This document shows positions 11,386 to 21,325 of a stretch of DNA of 64,000 nt, piece after piece (the stretch's first letter is position 1; each line of letters begins with the position of its first letter). Source of the stretch: Pseudocercospora fijiensis CIRAD86 (taxonomy: Eukaryota > Ascomycota > Dothideomycetes > Mycosphaerellales > Mycosphaerellaceae); the NCBI RefSeq assembly GCF_000340215.1, contig NW_006921539.1, forward strand, positions 2,880,056-2,944,055. Direction: 5' to 3'. Under the pieces are notes generated by a model. The model had not been told where the DNA came from. It saw only the letters and a program-made list of their open reading frames with translations, and did not search any database. Both the position numbers and the translations under genes were made by a program.

Positions 11386-11531
11386 TTAGACCCCGTAGTA
11401 GTTCGGTTTCCGAACCACCAAACGTATATAGTTTAGTTTCTTAGCGGCGAACTAGCTCCCTAGTTCCGGTTTGGTTTTTTCGAACTATATAGATTCCTAG
11501 TTTAAACTAGAGACTATATTGGTTTTACTAT

Positions 11532-11815
11532 AAGGACACTCTTATTCGACTGCCGGCTACGATTGCCGGCTATAATAGTAACTCTGTTATATTTACTACG
11601 CTCTTTTGCCGTTGCTAGGGCGTGGTTGCCGTTGCTAGGGCGTAGTTTTGCTACAAGGACACTCTTATTCGACTGCCGGCTACGATTGCCGGCTATAATA
11701 GTTACTAGGTTGTATTTACTACGCTTTATTACCGTTGCTAGGGCGTGGTTGCCGTTGCTAGGGCGTAGTTGCCGTTACTAGGGCGTAGTTGCTATTGCTA
11801 GGGCGTAGTTACTAT
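11532..11815. repeat. hAT subterminal repeats: two ~124-bp copies plus 16-bp direct repeats
   Basis: Two direct copies (starting about 11,532 and 11,656) begin AAGGACACTCTTATTCGACT, contain GCCGGCTA twice, and end in repeats of GCCGTTGCTAGGGCGTAG. The second copy carries at least four of the latter. Subterminal repeat arrays in hAT elements are commonly transposase binding sites, so that role is a reasonable inference here. Confidence 0.75.
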
Positions 11816-11986
11816 AGTTGCGAAAGCTTACCTATATAACGTTACGTAGGCGGCAACAATTAGGGCTTCGCGACATTCTTATACTTTTAACTTCTTCCTC
11901 TATACCTATACTAATAACAACTACTATACGCTGCGCCCCCGCCCCTTTCCCTTATAATAGCAAGAGAGAAGCGCGCCGCGCGCTAA

Positions 11987-13460
11987 ATAGAAGATAGAAC
12001 TAAAGACCGCGAGTTTATTTTACCTAAGCGTCTAACCAAAAAGCGTAAGACTAAAGAGGAGTACTCTACGAAGAAGAATTCCGTACGAGACCGCGAGAGA
12101 AAGGACAAGATAGATAAAGATAAAAGAGCTAAGGATAAGAGAAGAAAGGCGCGGAATAAGGCATTCTATCGATAGCTAGCGCCTATAGAAAAAAGTAAAG
12201 GTTAGAATAAGAAGACAACCTAAGAGAAGGCTAAGAGGAGGAAAGAATTACGGCTAGTTTTCGAGCGTAAAGTTCTAGTAGCGTAAGTTAATCTAGCTAG
12301 CGGCCGTAGCTAGCAGCTATAGCCGGCAGCCGTAGCCGGTAGCTATAGCCGGCATATTTTTCTTTAACACGTTAACTAATAGCATTTAGACCTGTAGTCG
12401 CTACCTCTATCGATACGACCGATAGTAACGGAGATGTTTAGATAGCCGAGAACAACAATACTAGAGTTTAGGATACCGCGATAGAGCTTAATACTGCGAA
12501 TAAAGGAACTAAAAAAAGCGAGGAGATACTATACGTCGATCTAGTAATAGGTGCAGTCTTAGGGCCTAACGCTATAGACGATAAGCGCTAGGAGTAGATC
12601 GAGCATAGTTAAAGAGACGAGATACTAGTAAAGGGCTAAGGTATAAGTCCTATTAATCTAGAAAATTATAGTTAAAGCTACTACGAAAAGCTAGTAAGGA
12701 TTGGAATCGAGACTAGTCGTCTTTATATCCTCGATATAGAGTAGAAGTTTCTTTATTAGTATTAGAGCGAAGCCTTTACGTCTATAAAGGCAAAGTAGCT
12801 TACGATTAATGCGATCGGGGCTAGGTATCTAGGGACGGCAGAAGTGTTACTATAGGAGGAAGGGGTATAGGTAATTATTCTATACTCGGTATATATAGCC
12901 GGCGTTCGTAGCCGGCAGATACTAACAGTTAAATAGAAAGCGTTTCTCGAAGGCAGAGTGCTACTACTATATAAAATCTTTACTAAGGTAGAGAGGGCTT
13001 ATATCCGGAATCTAAGCTACTAGTAGGATAGGTTAGCGTTAGAATTCTCTAAATCTCTATATAAGCCTCCGAAGGATTACCTATTTTAGCGATACGGCTT
13101 TATCTCGACTACTCCGTAGGTACCCGAAGAAGCTCGAGCGCTCTTTAAGGTCTTTACTAAGAAGCGGAAGGAGTTCGAGGATTAGGATTAGTTAATAGAG
13201 CTATTAGTTAGTCTTAGGTTTCGTAGTTAGACTCGGCCTAAGCATTTGCTTATCGAGTGTCTTATACCGAAAGAGGATAGATTAAGACTAAAAACGAGCT
13301 TAGATTCGTTAGGTATAGTAGCTCGGTTCCGTTAGTAGGAGAGAGCCGCCGTATAGAAGGCAAAATTCAGGTAGTTAGGGTAGCTAGGAAAGAAATTCTA
13401 GTAGTTAGGCTAGCTAGGGTAGCTAGGAAAAAAAATCTAGTAGTTAGGTAGCTAGGAAAC
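11987..13460 (+). pseudogene. Unrecognised basic protein gene in the hAT element, two introns
   Basis: I do not recognise this gene. The frame opens at 11,987 with ATA where ATG would fit (a TG to TA change). The first exon is very Lys/Arg-rich (PKRLTKKRKTKEEY, then KDKIDKDKRAKDKRRK) and coiled-coil-like. Intron 1 is 12,293-12,382 (GTAAGT..CTAAT..AG). Intron 2 is about 12,871-12,936 (GTAATT..ACTAAC..AG). Both hold TAGCCGGC clusters. The C-terminal part (about 13,360-13,460) decodes, with Gln restored, to short QLGQLGKK-like repeats. The frame is open apart from TAG/TAA codons. It could be an accessory protein of the transposon. No function is assigned. Confidence 0.5.
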
Positions 13461-13600
13461 AAAAAAAAAAGGTAGCTAGCTATTTACTGCCTAGCTATTC
13501 CTAACGATACGATGCTATAAAAGAAAGGGTGTTTCTCTATAGCTACTAGTATATATCTACTACTCCTAAGTCCTTACCTTACCGTACGAAACCTTAAAAC

Positions 13601-16600
13601 ATGCCGACCGACATTGTATATATACTAGGCGCTATACTAGGAAGGGTAACAACGAGACGACAGTCGAAACAGTCTAGTATACGAGCGAGATTGCGACAAC
13701 GTCGAGAGGAGGTCGTATACTTACCTTCGAGCCTATCGAGTCCTAGACGACGATTAGGGCTAGATTCATCCTCTCCGAATCCTAGTAGTAGGAATTTATT
13801 ATAGAGTACTACTACCTAGTCCTTACCTTTACGGAGTCTAAGTAGAAGGTTATTCGGAGATATAAGAACATCGAGTATTAACCCGGAAATCTTCGAAAAG
13901 GCTAGCTAGGCGTATCTTTAGAAACCCGAGTATATAGAGCAGTTCAATTAATAGGTCTATAAGATATAGTTCCCTTTATACTTACGTTCGAAGGAGTATA
14001 AACTCCGGAAGTACTCGATGCGATAGGGGAGTAAGGAGCGAACGGATATATTCTAGAAGTTCTTTATAGAGGGGGCATTATACCGTTATACGACTTCTCG
14101 ACTTAAAGGTTAACTAGTAATTGTCTGCAACTTCTACGGTTTAATCTTAAAACACCCGAAACTAGGGGATAGGAACTTATCGCCTACGAACTATCTCTAT
14201 TCTAAACGGTGTCGGGAATCTTAAGGAGAGAGGAGAGTTAATATAGATATAGCGTTCTAGAAAGAGGTATATCTTCTAAAATGCCGGCTATAGCTACCGG
14301 CTATAGCTGCCGGCTATAGATTCCGGCTACCTAAATCAACCGTAGAGATCTAGCTAATTATTATAGGCTACGCTTAAGGAAGCTCTAGGATTAAAGGCTA
14401 CCGATTTCTCCCCCGAAGACTTTAAGCAACTAGTAAACGAAATGCTAGCTATAAACGGTCTTCCGGAAGACTTCTACGAAAGGGAGTCTATATAGAAGAC
14501 ATACCTATATCTTACAAACTACCCTCCCCTATTTCTCGGCGCGACAACCTAGCGTATTATGTTCGAAAAGAACAAAGAGGCTACGTTAGACGATATTCGG
14601 GAGATCCTCCGTAATACTCGCCGAGTAGCTATTACTATCGATAGCTAGTTAAGCCGGACTATAAGAGCCTCCTTCCTCTCGATTATACTATACTTTATTA
14701 ATTCGGATTGGAAACTCTAGGAACTTATAATCGGATTCCCTAAAATTCTAGGTTCCTATACTAGTAAGGATATAGCGAAGCTTGTCTATACGGCAATAGA
14801 TAGGGTTAGTATAACAACGAAACTAATCTCGATTACTACGGACAACGCTAGTAATAATCGAACATTATATAAGGCGTTGTATATACAATTCACTCGTATA
14901 TGTCTTTAAAATCACTAATTATATCGATAGGGTCGAGTGCGTAGAGGAGATTACAAGGTCTATAATCTAGCTTAATCTTCCGAATGTTAAGCTCGCTACG
15001 ATTCCGGATACGCACGACAATACGCACGATAATAACGATAAAGAGGAGCCTATTAATAGCCCTAGCCCTATTGAATCGGAGCCGACGTCGTTGCTAGTTG
15101 TATCCCTATAGAAGTTTCCCTACCTCGCTTATATAGTTTAAATCGCGATCCGAGCCCTCTTTAAGACGCTTAAAATTGTACTATTAAACGACGACTAATA
15201 GAAGATCCTAGATAAGGATAAAGCAAAGTCGAAAGTCGAGAAACTTATTACAGCAATAAGACGGGATAAGGTAGAGAGCCTCGCTCTCGTTTTATATAAG
15301 GTATAACTTTTGTCCGTAGCCGGTACCTATAGCCGGCAACCTAGTATAGTTCTAACTCTTTTTCTCTAGCTTCGTCGTCTAGCAATATATACGAACTCGA
15401 GCTTATAGAGATGTAACCGATTCGAGGCTATTTAAAAGAACCTAATCGAGCGCCCTAAAACCGATACCTAGAATATCGTATAGAATAAGCGATAGCAAAA
15501 GCGGCCTCCTTAGCGCCTACTCCGTTTTACCTAAGACGTTAAAACCCGGTTCGATTCGACTTTCTATATAGTTACGAGGGGATATACTTTATATACCGCT
15601 CTCGAGATCTATTAGAGTTCCGAGGGTATTAAGTAGCTCGGCCTTACCGCCGCCGAATAGCGCTAAGTAGAGTATCTCGTCGATATTAGTAAGCATTACG
15701 CGAAGGTTACTACTACGATTAGAAGAACCCGAGGACCGACGATCTACCTTATCTTTACGTACTATAACTAGCTCTTTAACGAGCTCGAGGAAACCGTAGC
15801 TAAGCTAGCTAAGAAGAGCGTTCCCTAGAAAGTAGCTATAACGAAAGCTATAGACACCTCCTATACTAAGTTGTATAAATATTATAGTGCTACCTTTAAC
15901 TCGTTCGGGGATATCTATAGCGTTGCGTACTTGCTTAACCCGGTAGAAAAGGATATATACTAGTAGAGGCCGGAATAGAAGGCGGACGAGGTATAGCCGA
16001 AGCATTACTAGACTATTCTAGAAAAGATATTCTACGAGCGTCGGAAAGAAACTAGTCTAAATGCAGCTCCTATAAAGAAAAAGAAGGTTTAGAAGGCTCC
16101 GATATTATACCTATTTCGTAGGTAGGAAGTAGAGGCAGAAGAGGAAGCAACTACTAAAGTAAATAAGGAAGAGTTCGATCTCTATCGGCGCGTGAGTAAG
16201 TACAAACCCGTAGGCTCGGAAAGAGGGCTAATAATCTCTAGATCTTACCGGTCTTCTAGACGAATTCGGAGACGATATTCTCGCTATATAGTAGCGGTTA
16301 GAGCCTAAGTTTCTAACGATAGCGTCGGTCGCTCGGGACGTCCTCGCTATCCCGAGCGTAGGTATAGGCTATAAGAGGTCTTTTAGTATCGCTCGTTACT
16401 AGGGCCGCTTTAATCGAATATACTCGCCTACTACCTTCGAATCTATTATAGTATTCCGATACTATCTCCTCTACTAGAATCGCTAAGGCAGGTTACTAAA
16501 GATTATGCTAAAGGAGTTAATTAAGGAATTAGAAAACCTTAAGATCGAAGAAACCTAGGAGCGCGAAGAGAATGCGAAATTTAGTCTAAGCGAAACCCTA

Positions 16601-16720
16601 ATTAGCGATAACGAAGAGGAGGAGGGCGGAGGTAGAAGGCGATACCGGGTCGAGAAGCGGAAACGTATACAGGCTTAGAGTAGCTTTAAGGAGACGAAGC
16701 GTTTACGTATAAGGTAATAT
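13601..16720 (+). pseudogene. hAT transposase (RIP-degraded), several introns
   Basis: The hAT transposase catalyses cut-and-paste excision and insertion. The start is ATG 13,601. Visible blocks, with TAG read as Gln/Trp: catalytic-core sequence at about 14,625-14,870 (AITIDSxLSRTIRASFLSI, then YFINSDWKL.ELIIGFPKI and LISITTDNASNN, a family hallmark); YYSATFNSFGDIYSVAYLLNP near 15,880-15,940; and the C-terminal dimerisation domain (hATC) at about 16,325-16,490 (LARDV.AIPS..IG.KRSFSIARY and R.YSPTTFESI). Introns with TAGCCGGC clusters lie at 14,267-14,366 (GTATAT..CTAAT..TATAG) and 15,301-15,369 (GTATAA..TCTAAC..CTAG). A further donor with a cluster follows at about 16,711. Many TAG/TAA codons make it inactive. 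Confidence 0.85.
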
Positions 16721-17028
16721 AGCCGGCGTATATAGCCGGTATATATCCGAAATGTGTTTCGAATTCCTAGGACCCAAATAGACTAGTTGCTATAGCAACC
16801 GACCCCGCTTACCTACGGACTATTTCTAATTCTCTATTCGCTCTTCCTCTCCTTCTTCCCTTTCCCTATATTCTTAAAGACAAATATGCCTTAAGGATTC
16901 GGCTCTTCGGGCCTTCCTAAGCCGGCTACCTCCCCTTCCTTAAGCTACTATCCTTTATTCGAATCTAACGATAACCTAATAAGGCGGTTTAATAGAAGAC
17001 TATTTGTTCTAGAAGGCAAGAAGCATTA

Positions 17029-17760
17029 ATGTCTCCCTACGATTATATGCTTATTAATTTTCTAGGTCCTACCGATATACCCTCGTCGCCTAAACGCGTA
17101 GATGAATATCTTTAGAGGCTAAAGGGTAAGGGTAAAGTAAGCTAAGTATAGGGAGACCGTAGCGAGAACGAGATATCGGAAGAGTAAGGCTCTCCGTAGT
17201 ATATACGAAGGAAGGGGGTTCTTCGGAAAACAGTACCGAAAAACAAGAAGGCTATAGGTAGATAGGAGAAGGCTAAAAAGAGTAGGCGGACGAAGACTGT
17301 CGCGAAGAAAAGTTATCTTTCTATTAAAAGAAAGGGAATAAGGCAGGACTCGACGATAAAGAAGCGGCGCTTTAAACTAGGTACTATTGCCCTTCGCTAG
17401 ATCCGGCTTTTCTAAAACAAAAGAGGGACCGAGCTTTTAATCCCTAAGACTCCCTTCTAGCGACTCGTCCGAGAAATTATATTAGATTTTCGGTCTAGTA
17501 TGCGATTTACGGCTAAGGCGATTAGTGCTCTTTAGGAAGCTATAGAGGCATTTCTCGTAACCGAGCTTAAGCTTTCAAACCTCCTTACTATCTATACGAA
17601 GCGGGTTACTCTTTAAAATAAAGATATGCAGCTTCTAGCTAAAATTCGGCGTCGGTTTATAGCGGATTAGTTAGAAATTGTATTTAGTCGTTAGATTAAC
17701 CTAGGAGGAGGCCCATTTTCGCATCCTTTTGCCGGCTATAGGTACCGGCTACATTTCTGA
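17029..17760 (+). pseudogene. Histone H3-like gene 1 of the hAT element: long basic tail plus H3 fold
   Basis: From ATG 17,029 a ~112-residue Lys/Arg/Ser-rich tail leads in frame to an H3 fold at about 17,371-17,658. It reads FKLGTIALRxIRLFxN..., then GTELLIPKTPFxRLVREI, RFTAKAISALxEAIEAFL and IYTKRVTLxNKDMQLL.KIRR, where x is TAG/TAA at a Gln-like position. The order (alpha-N, alpha-1, loop 1, alpha-2, loop 2, alpha-3) matches H3/CENP-A, with the H3 landmarks PFQRLVREI, ALQEA and KRVT. The tail lacks ARTKQTARKS, so it resembles a divergent variant. The frame continues past the usual H3 end to a TGA at 17,758, probably inside an intron with a GCCGGCTA cluster, because the same frame is open again to about 18,050. 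It is inactive now. No function is proven for the intact form. Confidence 0.8.
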
Positions 17761-18060
17761 TTTTATCTCCGCGCCGTCCCTAAATCTAAGGTACGAAGTA
17801 GAAACCTAGCGCTCTATATTCACCCGGCTCTTATAGAGACGAGCTACATTTAGATTAGTTTCTTCGTATATCGCGACCTAGCGGGTAGTAAGCGAAAGGG
17901 CGATAGAACGTTTATAATACGTCTCTATTTAGACCTAAAATACAAAGGTCCTAAGGAGCCCTAGCATCCTAACTATAAGGAGATTCTTTAGTATTAGCAC
18001 TTTGATCCTCTATACTACGAGGTAGATAGCAAGCCTACGAGAGAGAAACTTTAACGAGAA
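17761..18060 (+). other. Open segment downstream of H3-like gene 1, possibly its C-terminal exon
   Basis: In the same frame as H3-like gene 1, codons are open except for former Gln positions. Segments such as YIHPALIETSYI, FFVYRDLAGSKRKGDRTFI and HFDPLYYEVDSKPTREKL can be read. I do not recognise the domain. A shared frame and a probable intron just upstream suggest one gene with a C-terminal extension after the histone fold, but it could be a separate small gene. Confidence 0.4.
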
Positions 18061-18776
18061 ATTCTCTATAATACGTAGCGCTATTATATAGCTACAGATA
18101 CGCACTAAGTCCGGCAACTCGAAGAAGAATTAAGATAGCGTATTAGCGACCGAGGAGGAGATCGATAGTATACTAGTAGAGTCGAGGTCTTACAAGCGAA
18201 GTACAAGATAATATAGGCTCTTAGTCGTATAGAGTAACGTACTATATAAATAACTAGGCGTACTACTCTTATTCACTTACGACCTATATCCTAGGATGCT
18301 CTTATCGTACTTTTTATACTCTTTTCTAATACCTTACCTATAATCGCTCCGCGACAACCGAGTGAATATAAGCTATAGGATTTCCGCTCGGTACCTTAGC
18401 CTTCGAGATACGGCGGAGTTGATTCTCTATAATACGTAGCGCTATTGCATAGCTACAGATGCGCACTAAGTCCGGCAACTCGAAGAAGATTTAAGACAGC
18501 GACCGAGTAGGAGAATAATAGTATATTAGTAGAGTCGAGGTCTTATAAGCGAAGCACGAGATAATATAGGCTCTTAGTCGTATAGAGTAACGTACTATAT
18601 AAATAACTAGGCGTGCTACTCTTATTCACTTACGACCTATATCCTAGGATACTCTTCTCGTACTTTTTATACTCTTTTCTAATACCTTACCTATAAGCGC
18701 TCCGCGACAACCGAGTGAATATAAGCTATAGGGTTTCCGCTCGGTACCTTAGCCTCCGAGATAGGGCAGAGTTGAA
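18061..18776. repeat. Tandem direct duplication, ~361-bp unit, two copies
   Basis: Copy 1 starts at 18,061 and copy 2 at about 18,422, both with ATTCTCTATAATACGTAGCG. Both contain CACTAAGTCCGGCAACTCGA, GAGTCGAGGTCTTA and TTATTCACTTACGACCTATA, and end near CCGCTCGGTACCTTAGCC. The second copy is slightly shorter, with a small deletion near 18,500. A long frame (LEEELR, then TLIHLRPIS and PRQPSEYKL) can be read in copy 1. The unit is not a multiple of 3, so this is not a simple in-frame domain repeat. Confidence 0.85.
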
Positions 18777-19328
18777 TTTAGAGCGATAGCCGGCACTCGT
18801 AGCCGGCTATCGTAGCCGGCATATAGAGACGGTAGTAGGCCTTTTCCTACTAAATGACTAGCTTGTTTAGTATAGCCTACCTGATATTTCTTATATTTAC
18901 TAGCAATAGGCCTAGGTTACTTATAAGATTACTATAGCTAGTAAAGGCATTACTAAAGAATATCTATACTATAGTAGGATACTATTATTACGCCGGCTAT
19001 TTATTAAAAGGAGGCTTTCGCCTATTACTATACCGGCTATATATGCCGGCTATATTTCAAAGTCTGCCGTACCTGCCTTTTTTAGCCGTGCCTGCCTTTT
19101 TTAGCCGTGCCTACCTTCTTTCCTTGCTCTAACGTTACTATAATATAGGCTTACGCGAAGCTTACTCTATTGCCTAGCGATACCGCGATACTACCGCTAT
19201 ATTCAACCTTCGTATCGATACCTATACCTCTACGCTCTACATCTACTACCTCCGTAATACCCTCGCTCCGCGCGCGCCTTCGTATACCTTCGTAACGCAC
19301 TTTTTTCCTTAATTCGACGACTTTTACA
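18777..19328 (+). promoter_or_regulatory. Spacer and probable 5' region of H3-like gene 2, with TAGCCGGC clusters
   Basis: No gene is seen. Motif clusters occur at 18,787-18,822 (three copies) and 18,990-19,060. Two copies of CCTGCCTTTTTTAGCCGTG lie at 19,070-19,110. A pyrimidine-rich stretch precedes the next gene. By position this is the 3' end of the preceding unit and the promoter or leader of H3-like gene 2. Confidence 0.45.
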
Positions 19329-20170
19329 ATAGCGAGTCTACTTAACTAAGTTACGACGCCTCGTAAGAAGGGACCTACTACTTCTGCGGGTCGTAACAAG
19401 ATCGGAAATAGTAGAACGAGTATAGTACATTAACGTAAGATAGCTACTGCTACTACCGCTAGCTCCGGTGCTAGAAAGGGCGTCGCGAGCAAGGCTCCGC
19501 GTAAGACAACGGCGGGCAAGGCTCCGCGCAAGACAACGGCGGGCAAGGCTCTACGTAAGACGATAACTAGCGCTTCTACTACTAGTAGCAATCGTACGAA
19601 GCGTCGATAGCGCCTAGGAAGTAAGTCCTATTTATAGCCGGCAGCATAGCCGGTAGCGTAGCCGGTAGCGTAGCCGGCATTCTTACTGTCTTTTTACTAA
19701 TCCTTCTTTAGCCGTAGCCCTCCGTAAGATTCGGCAGTATTAGAAGAGTTCTTAGCTTCTAATCCGCAAAACTCCTTTCTAACGACTTATTCGCGAAATT
19801 GCCTAGGATTATAGAACGGACCTTCGCTTCTAAGCCTCCGCGATAGGCGCCCTTTAAGAGGCTATAGAAGCCTACCTAGTTCGTATCTTCGAATATATGT
19901 TTCTCTTCTACCTCTTTTCGGACTATACTAATACTATTTTAGCGGTCAACCTTATAGCTATCTACGCGAAGCGTATAACGATTATAGATAAGGATTTTAA
20001 AGCACTCGATTAGATTCTAAAAGGCTAGAATGTCTATATTCGAGACGGTGCTAGGTAGGATGGATATTCTAGTAGAAAGGATGTTCGTAGTGTTATCTAT
20101 AAGCTTTTCTATATACGAAATGAGCCGCTATTATACGGCGCTATATACCGCGCTCTAAATACTCTCTAAG
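19329..20170 (+). pseudogene. Histone H3-like gene 2 of the hAT element: H3-type tail with GKAPRK repeats plus H3 fold
   Basis: The probable start is 19,329 (ATA, formerly ATG). The tail contains SKAPRKTTAGKAPRKTTAG then KALRKT; GKAPRK matches H3 residues 13-18. Intron 19,621-19,711 (GTAAGT..ACTAAT..TTTAG) holds a TAGCCGGC cluster. Splicing gives GGA-A^CC-GTA = Gly-Thr-Val, restoring (P)GTVALR at the exact H3 position. The fold follows: VALRKIRxYxKSSxLLIRKT, PFxRLIREIAxDYRTDLRF, SAIGALxEAIEAYL, then AIYAKRITI. A 51-nt in-frame insert after IFEY (about 19,895-19,945), ending TACTAAT..TTTTAG, looks like a second intron with a mutated donor. The C-terminus diverges after KDFKAL and extends about 50 residues (YIRDGAR, then LLYGAIYRAL). 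All x positions are TAG/TAA, consistent with Gln. It is inactive now. Confidence 0.85.
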
Positions 20171-20339
20171 TATATATATATAGTACAGTATACTTTATTG
20201 GCCGTACGGAATAGAAGTCTCCCAAAATCCCGTTAGTACTAAGGAGTAAAAAGGCCGGCTACGCTGCCGGCTACGCTGCCGGCTACGCTACTAGCTACGC
20301 TGCTAGGTTTTTTAAAGAACTAAAAGAAGATAGACATTC

Positions 20340-20892
20340 CGGTTGATTTGTATTAGTTTAGATTTTTATAAAAAGAAAACAGGGAAAAATAAGGAAGGTT
20401 GAAGAGCCTAATAGTTATAGTTATAGGCACTATCCCTGTTTTCTAGAGTATATTATATACCTGCCTTCGCAACTCTACCTAATACTCCCTCTAAATATCC
20501 TTATACTCTACCTACTGAAAATTCAACTAGGTACCTAGACCTGCAGCTGCCTCTATATCTTTTACTATCTTCTATAGGTTAAAGGCCTCTTCTATAGCAG
20601 CCTCTACCTCCTTATATAATACGAAGTTACTACCTACCCTACCCTTTATATCTCCTAAATAACTAAGAGTTCTAAGGAACGAACTAGCATTCGGCCTTAG
20701 TATAGCGAGTAACTAGTAGAACGTTCTATAGAGCTGCCTTATAGCTCTTTTATATACTGTACCGATACCGAGGGAGGAGCTATCCTAGTACTTAATGTTG
20801 TCGAATAGTTCGGTAGGAAAGTGTATAAACTTCTTAAGGAGGAGGACTTCTAGGGAAATCGATGAGTTCTACCTAGATCTAGATAAAGACAT
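20340..20892 (-). pseudogene. Small minus-strand reading frame in the hAT element, unknown
   Basis: ATG at 20,892 opens a frame (MSLSRSR, then EVLLLKKFIHFPTELFDNI, GIGTVYKRAI and NFVLYKEVEAAIEEAFNL) interrupted only by TAG/TAA codons, as expected for a RIP-mutated real gene. I do not recognise the family. It is convergent with H3-like gene 2. An 11-bp inverted repeat (GAAAACAGGGA / TCCCTGTTTTC, about 20,375-20,442) lies at its 3' end and could form a hairpin. Confidence 0.45.
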
Positions 20893-21325
20893 TCTACTAA
20901 GCAGTTAGGGAATTGAACCGTAAACGAAAGGATGAAATTCATACCTAAGGAGTGCAGTTTCCGAACTGAACTATAATGCCTTATATATATATGTATATAC
21001 TTTTGATTAGTTAGTGCCCTTAGCTGATTGTCTATAGATTTAAGGTTATATAAGTACCTTTATATAACTACGTAGCCTAAGTAGGATTCGAAAATTCTAT
21101 AAGTACTAAGGACTAAAAATGCCGGCTACGCTGCCGGCTATACTACTGAGTCTTACAAAGGGCTTGCTTGAAGCTACGTATACATTCGTATACTTCTTAA
21201 AAACCGATAAATTATATGGTTCGAACTAGCTACTTATATGGTTGCTTAGCAAACCAACCTAAACTAAACCAGAGTTTCGGCTTAGCAAACTAAACTAAAC
21301 TAACCCGAACTACTGCGGGGTCTAA
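20893..21325. other. Right subterminal region and TIR of the hAT element
   Basis: No gene is seen. GCCGGCTA occurs twice at about 21,120-21,140. The right end, read on the minus strand, starts TTAGACCCCGCAGTAGTTCGG and continues with TAGTTTAG-type direct repeats (21,255-21,305), partly matching the left end's TAGTTTAGTTTC. Confidence 0.6.

Follow-up and report, generated by a model that had tools for sequence, protein, structure and literature searches.

Does a transposon that carries histone genes keep them for its own use, or do they simply travel along? Cargo can hitch-hike alongside a transposase without any usefulness, and the question is raised here by two histone H3-like genes (H3L1 and H3L2) that, according to the original prediction, lie inside a hAT element of the fungus Pseudocercospora fijiensis. 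We have analysed the whole stretch of 64,000 nucleotides around them (hereafter the window), i.e., positions 2880056–2944055 of contig C8 in a genome of 73.94 Mb and 30 contigs.

As to location, the prediction holds. The element spans positions 11387–21324 of the window (forward strand, like all features below), is 9.9 kb long, and contains both H3-like genes within its borders. It has 20-nt terminal inverted repeats (TIRs) at both ends, with TAGACCCCGYAGTAGTTCGG present at 11387 and, inverted, at 21324, and other copies of its subfamily (A, see below) align with it from ~11387 on at ~96–97% identity. With at most one mismatch, the TIR motif has 417 + 405 occurrences genome-wide, and the same motif read backwards has 0 + 0. 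The 8-bp target site duplication (TSD), judged by eye, is perfect in four of the five elements with both ends matched by an 18-nt TIR pattern, and imperfect in the window copy (AGCGAGTA/AGCGAGTT, with a 2-nt shift on the left); among 13 right flanks fetched, 10 carry no exact match to the TIR pattern. Short TIRs together with this 8-bp TSD assign the element to the hAT type. Its transposase is encoded by several exons at 13889–16714, with probable introns near 14267–14366 and 15301–15369. A match to the hAT dimerisation domain (PF05699) near 16276–16393 is sub-threshold in the window (16.3 bits, cut-off 21.4), and 11 of 11 copies match this domain with E values of 1 or less (best 0.0051). One database protein matched a 434-residue block of the transposase, at 31% identity. 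In addition, a coding-like region lies upstream at 11984–13480, where a frame-specific transversion pattern and splice-like signals suggest probable introns near 12283–12382 and 12871–12936; the two pieces tested gave no Pfam match, and the codon test, which covers the A–B comparison only, is not significant.

The element bears the marks of RIP, with a TA/AT index of 1.86 and a (CA+TG)/(AC+GT) index of 0.31, compared with 0.52 and 1.38 in a comparison region at 27–37 kb of the window. A first look at the genome gave 405 candidates for H3L1, 408 for H3L2 and 378 for the transposase (40 of each scored). Among 150 scored matches to the histone profile PF00125, from 772 candidates in the genome, 148 contain stop codons, and the two stop-free ones are the host H3 gene (L001, on contig 6, with two introns) and the host CENP-A gene (L035). 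The H3-like genes are broken in the element copies read. The window element belongs to a fungal H3-carrying transposon that is present in several hundred mutated copies.

Such a transposon has been described before, and the statement that no hAT element with such cargo was known has to be withdrawn, since elements from two fungi are published (PMC6710886; PMC3538342). Dhillon et al. (2019) described in P. fijiensis a hAT element of 9.5–9.9 kb with a 20-bp TIR and an 8-bp TSD, carrying one or two H3-like copies each (two if full-length, 784 H3-like copies in total) and damaged by RIP, with the original H3 gene on scaffold 6 (PMC6710886). The window element is almost certainly a copy of this very element, because length, TIR, TSD, the two H3-like genes, RIP, the host H3 gene on contig 6 and the copy numbers, hundreds in both cases, all agree with the published description. 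The differences lie in the interpretation. In the published reading, the H3 copies are intron-free and transcript-derived, copy 2 has a 16-aa insertion, no dimerisation domain is present, and the copies are treated as one family (PMC6710886); here H3L2 apparently has two introns, one of them equal in length to the insertion, which looks like an intron, a sub-threshold dimerisation match exists, and three subfamilies can be told apart. The other element, from Pyrenophora tritici-repentis, was reported by Manning et al. (2013). It likewise has a hAT transposase, a further ORF of unknown function, and a divergent H3-like gene for which neither H3 nor CenH3 is a complete fit, but it is 5.6 kb long (short form 2.3 kb), has one H3-like gene and occurs in 26 copies, mostly intact and with ESTs (PMC3538342). 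The two elements, compared here by description, have no sequence similarity according to Dhillon et al. (PMC6710886). Pack-type transduplication by plant DNA transposons is alike in placing host gene pieces between transposon ends (PMC8616336), whereas here the cargo consists of entire genes, and the full-length elements that hold them also encode a transposase. Therefore the H3-carrying hAT element itself is already known, and what differs from or adds to the published account concerns the apparent introns of H3L2, the subfamilies with both genes and the apparent constraint on the histone cores, and the relationship of the two genes to each other, to host H3 and to CENP-A.

We have divided 25 ten-kb loci into three subfamilies: A (the window and 18 of the loci), B (L032 and L033, with 83–90% block-wise identity to the window element) and C (L010, L017, L023, L029 and L031, ~75–86% over blocks above 300 bp). 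All 25 copies contain both H3-like genes, whole or in part, with interruptions in H3L2 of L017 and H3L1 of L029, so that the genes are common to all three subfamilies. Copies devoid of the H3 genes, which would have pointed to a separate entry, do not appear among the 25, but these loci were picked by histone match, so that a loss of H3L1 could not show.

The two genes are of the H3 type. When TAG and TAA are read through as Gln, H3L1 (17029–17709) matches PF00125 with 87.0 bits (E 1.5e-24) and H3L2 (19708–20163) with 81.7 bits (E 6.7e-23), so both Gln-restored genes exceed the curated cut-off of 26.4 bits, as the proposed profile check was to establish. Their best matches by sequence among solved structures are histone H3 chains (E 3e-27 and 8.3e-28, respectively). 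The expected restoration of RIP stops to Gln is borne out as well: in the two window cores (that of H3L2 without its final 12 residues), 9 of 11 stop codons occupy canonical Gln positions and the other 2 Glu positions. A chance match to H3 is ruled out by the profile scores, the stops at canonical Gln and the conservation across subfamilies.

H3L1 consists of a basic tail and an H3 core (17371–17658) without an intron. In the window its reading frame is broken by 1 nt near 17026 when compared with subfamily C, in which the read-through is longer and comprises 265 residues. The canonical ARTKQTARKS is absent from the read-through tails of both genes. A search with H3L1 found 34 proteins with an E of at most 0.001, each of them containing a histone domain; since its length limits exclude the 136-residue H3s, this search is uninformative on H3 versus CENP-A. 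The N-terminal part of H3L1 is shared, by eye, by none of the 13 of these 34 that were examined.

The lack of ARTKQTARKS had led to H3L1 being called CENP-A-like, and a captured CENP-A might steer the element to centromeres or disturb them. The comparisons establish neither gene as a CENP-A, and such a captured CENP-A is very improbable in our view. The tail is indeed long and divergent, and in a test with 18 rows the grouping of H3L1 with CENP-A is not rejected (p-AU 0.35), but the best sequence matches of H3L1 are H3, it lies outside the supported CENP-A branch (98/99) in the 28-row tree, and it lacks, by eye, the loop-1 lengthening and the RWQS motif of the fungal CENP-A rows compared. In the cores of six copies, H3L1 is 55–59% and H3L2 53–67% identical to host H3, and the two are 44–54% identical to each other. 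Their divergence from one another is thus about as great as that from host H3, which agrees with the earlier statement that they do not stem from one recent duplication. In the trees, each forms its own supported branch, and the two are grouped too weakly (62/74) to decide between one capture and two. Separately, the H3L2 core is nearer to host H3 in subfamily A (67%, 2 copies) than in B and C (53–58%, 4 copies: L010, L023, L031 and L033), which could reflect rapid evolution in B and C or else an exchange in A, and the trees conflict in that the H3L2 rows join B with C and the H3L1 rows join A with B.

For H3L2, the predicted H3 fold stands, but the gene reads as H3 only with two introns taken out. 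Exon 1 (19329–19620, start codon inferred) encodes a tail with KAPRK-type units, which are SKAPRK, GKAPRK and GKALRK, one each, rather than the two GKAPRK copies previously read, and their number differs among copies. It is followed by intron 1 (19621–19711, phase 1), exon 2 with the first part of the core (19712–19894), intron 2 (19895–19942, 48 bp) and exon 3 with the remaining core (to ~20055) and a C-terminal extension (19943–20166, with a provisional end). In alignment columns, intron 1 starts with GTAAGT in 26 of 26 copies and ends with TTTAG or CTTAG in 25. Its length varies from 69 to 116 bp, with modulo-three remainders of 1, 0 and 2 in 20, 4 and 2 copies, so this stretch keeps no frame, and its removal restores LG-T-VALR at the canonical place. 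Intron 2 of the host H3 gene has the same phase and is offset from it by 3 nt.

The 48 bp of intron 2 equal in length the insertion of 16 residues that Dhillon et al. (2019) describe. Three features would suit a real insertion: the stretch is a multiple of three, its length is the same in 26 of 26 copies, and it shows strong conservation between the subfamilies compared. On the other hand, it ends with TTTAG in all 26 copies, starts with GTATGT in 5 and with RIP-type variants of it in the other 21, and contains a CTAAT branch-like motif; excising it returns the core to its canonical length, and translating it would place 16 mostly hydrophobic residues within what we take to be the limits of helix alpha-2. 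We therefore regard a true insertion as improbable. From these sequence signals, H3L2 appears to have two spliceosomal introns, the second less certain than the first, and the published gene structure of the element likely needs correction in this respect. The introns, one of them near the host H3 intron in the same phase, argue against capture of a transcript for H3L2, for which such an origin is unlikely; for H3L1 it is possible, since its core has no intron.

Have the histone cores evolved under selection? RIP produces only transitions, so it cannot bias a count of transversions, and for this reason we have compared the subfamilies by transversions only, classed as nonsynonymous or synonymous by codon effect within exact exon edges. 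Codons with a stop or gap in either subfamily were dropped (15–19 of 193 for the cores, 59–170 of 777 for the transposase), and the p-values are uncorrected for the number of tests. For the pooled H3L1 and H3L2 cores, the nonsynonymous/synonymous ratio is 0.33 for A–C (p 0.002) and 0.43 for B–C (p 0.03), while A–B is not significant (0.67, p 0.27). The signal comes from H3L2, whose core alone gives 0.29 (p 0.004), 0.33 (p 0.007) and 0.71 (p 0.47) for A–C, B–C and A–B; H3L1 has too few transversions to judge (7, 4 and 4, with ratios of 0.54, 1.97 and 0.49, none significant). The transposase shows 0.42 (p 0.0008), 0.46 (p 0.005) and 0.26 (p 0.0001) in the same order, and shifted reading frames give 0.73–2.30 for the cores and 0.94–1.80 for the transposase. 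The subfamily comparisons reveal no significant constraint in the tails (H3L1 0.50–1.98, H3L2 0.99–1.64), nor any in the H3L1 N-terminal and H3L2 C-terminal extensions, where synonymous transversions number zero. Within subfamily A, transversions are too few for the test (transposase 6, cores 2, tails 4). The comparisons with C thus point to constraint on the pooled cores, in their reading frame, and to none on the tails. Because the two genes were already present in both members of each subfamily pair, this constraint acted inside the element.

Overall, the histone genes have probably been kept selectively within the element, our confidence being limited by the few transversions in H3L1 taken alone, and this suggests that they once functioned in the element and were not chance cargo. 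The published reading, in which the cargo began as a host H3 transcript taken up by a hAT element, hitch-hiked and was then destroyed by RIP, is in accordance with an H3L1 core that has no intron at the host H3 intron site, with the stops in all scored copies except the two host genes, with tails and extensions free of constraint, and with the non-significant A–B test of the cores. It does not account for an H3L2 intron so close to host intron 2 and in its phase, or for the constrained pooled cores between C and the other subfamilies, and we consider it unlikely.

If the genes were working parts, an active element would have made two H3 variants, which may have formed pairs with host H4 and been built into nucleosomes, perhaps those on the element's own DNA. 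Such variant nucleosomes would be poor substrates for H3K4/K9 marking, because the normal ARTKQTARKS start is missing, and this could have eased the silencing of the element, before RIP presumably inactivated the copies. Judged from sequence, action through nucleosomes is conceivable, at somewhat less than an even chance, and a role in silencing or insertion-site choice, as first put forward, remains an inference. The absence of constraint on the tails suits a function that resides in the core better than one based on specific tail marks. More tentatively, and with considerable doubt, a class of fungal hAT elements may retain divergent H3 variants of its own, some with introns, as functional components, whose nucleosomes would escape H3K9-type silencing or help the transposase. 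If this is true, the carriage of H3 by two hAT elements without sequence similarity would be convergence, not accident. If H3L2 has introns and the cores were selected inside the element, the view that a transcript was captured and carried as dead cargo has to be revised, and histone variants made by transposons would represent a testable counter-measure against silencing.

Several minor features of the element have also been observed. A 12–13-bp unit, TAGCCGG(C/T), is arrayed in most inferred introns, including H3L2 intron 1, and in intergenic gaps (window 11552–21141); 35 of its 39 sites in the window fall inside the element, and the B and C copies inspected show similar clusters. A tandem duplication of ~361 bp at 18061–18775 is absent from some other copies and may be the source of the ~9.5 versus ~9.9 kb full lengths. 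Four pairs of TIRs 369 bp apart (C1:8853281–8853649, C1:8896687–8897055, C1:10656736–10657104 and C2:581715–582083) are too short to hold the H3 genes, as expected of MITE-like deletion derivatives without cargo, and a further pair spans 5.2 kb at C1:261014–266203.
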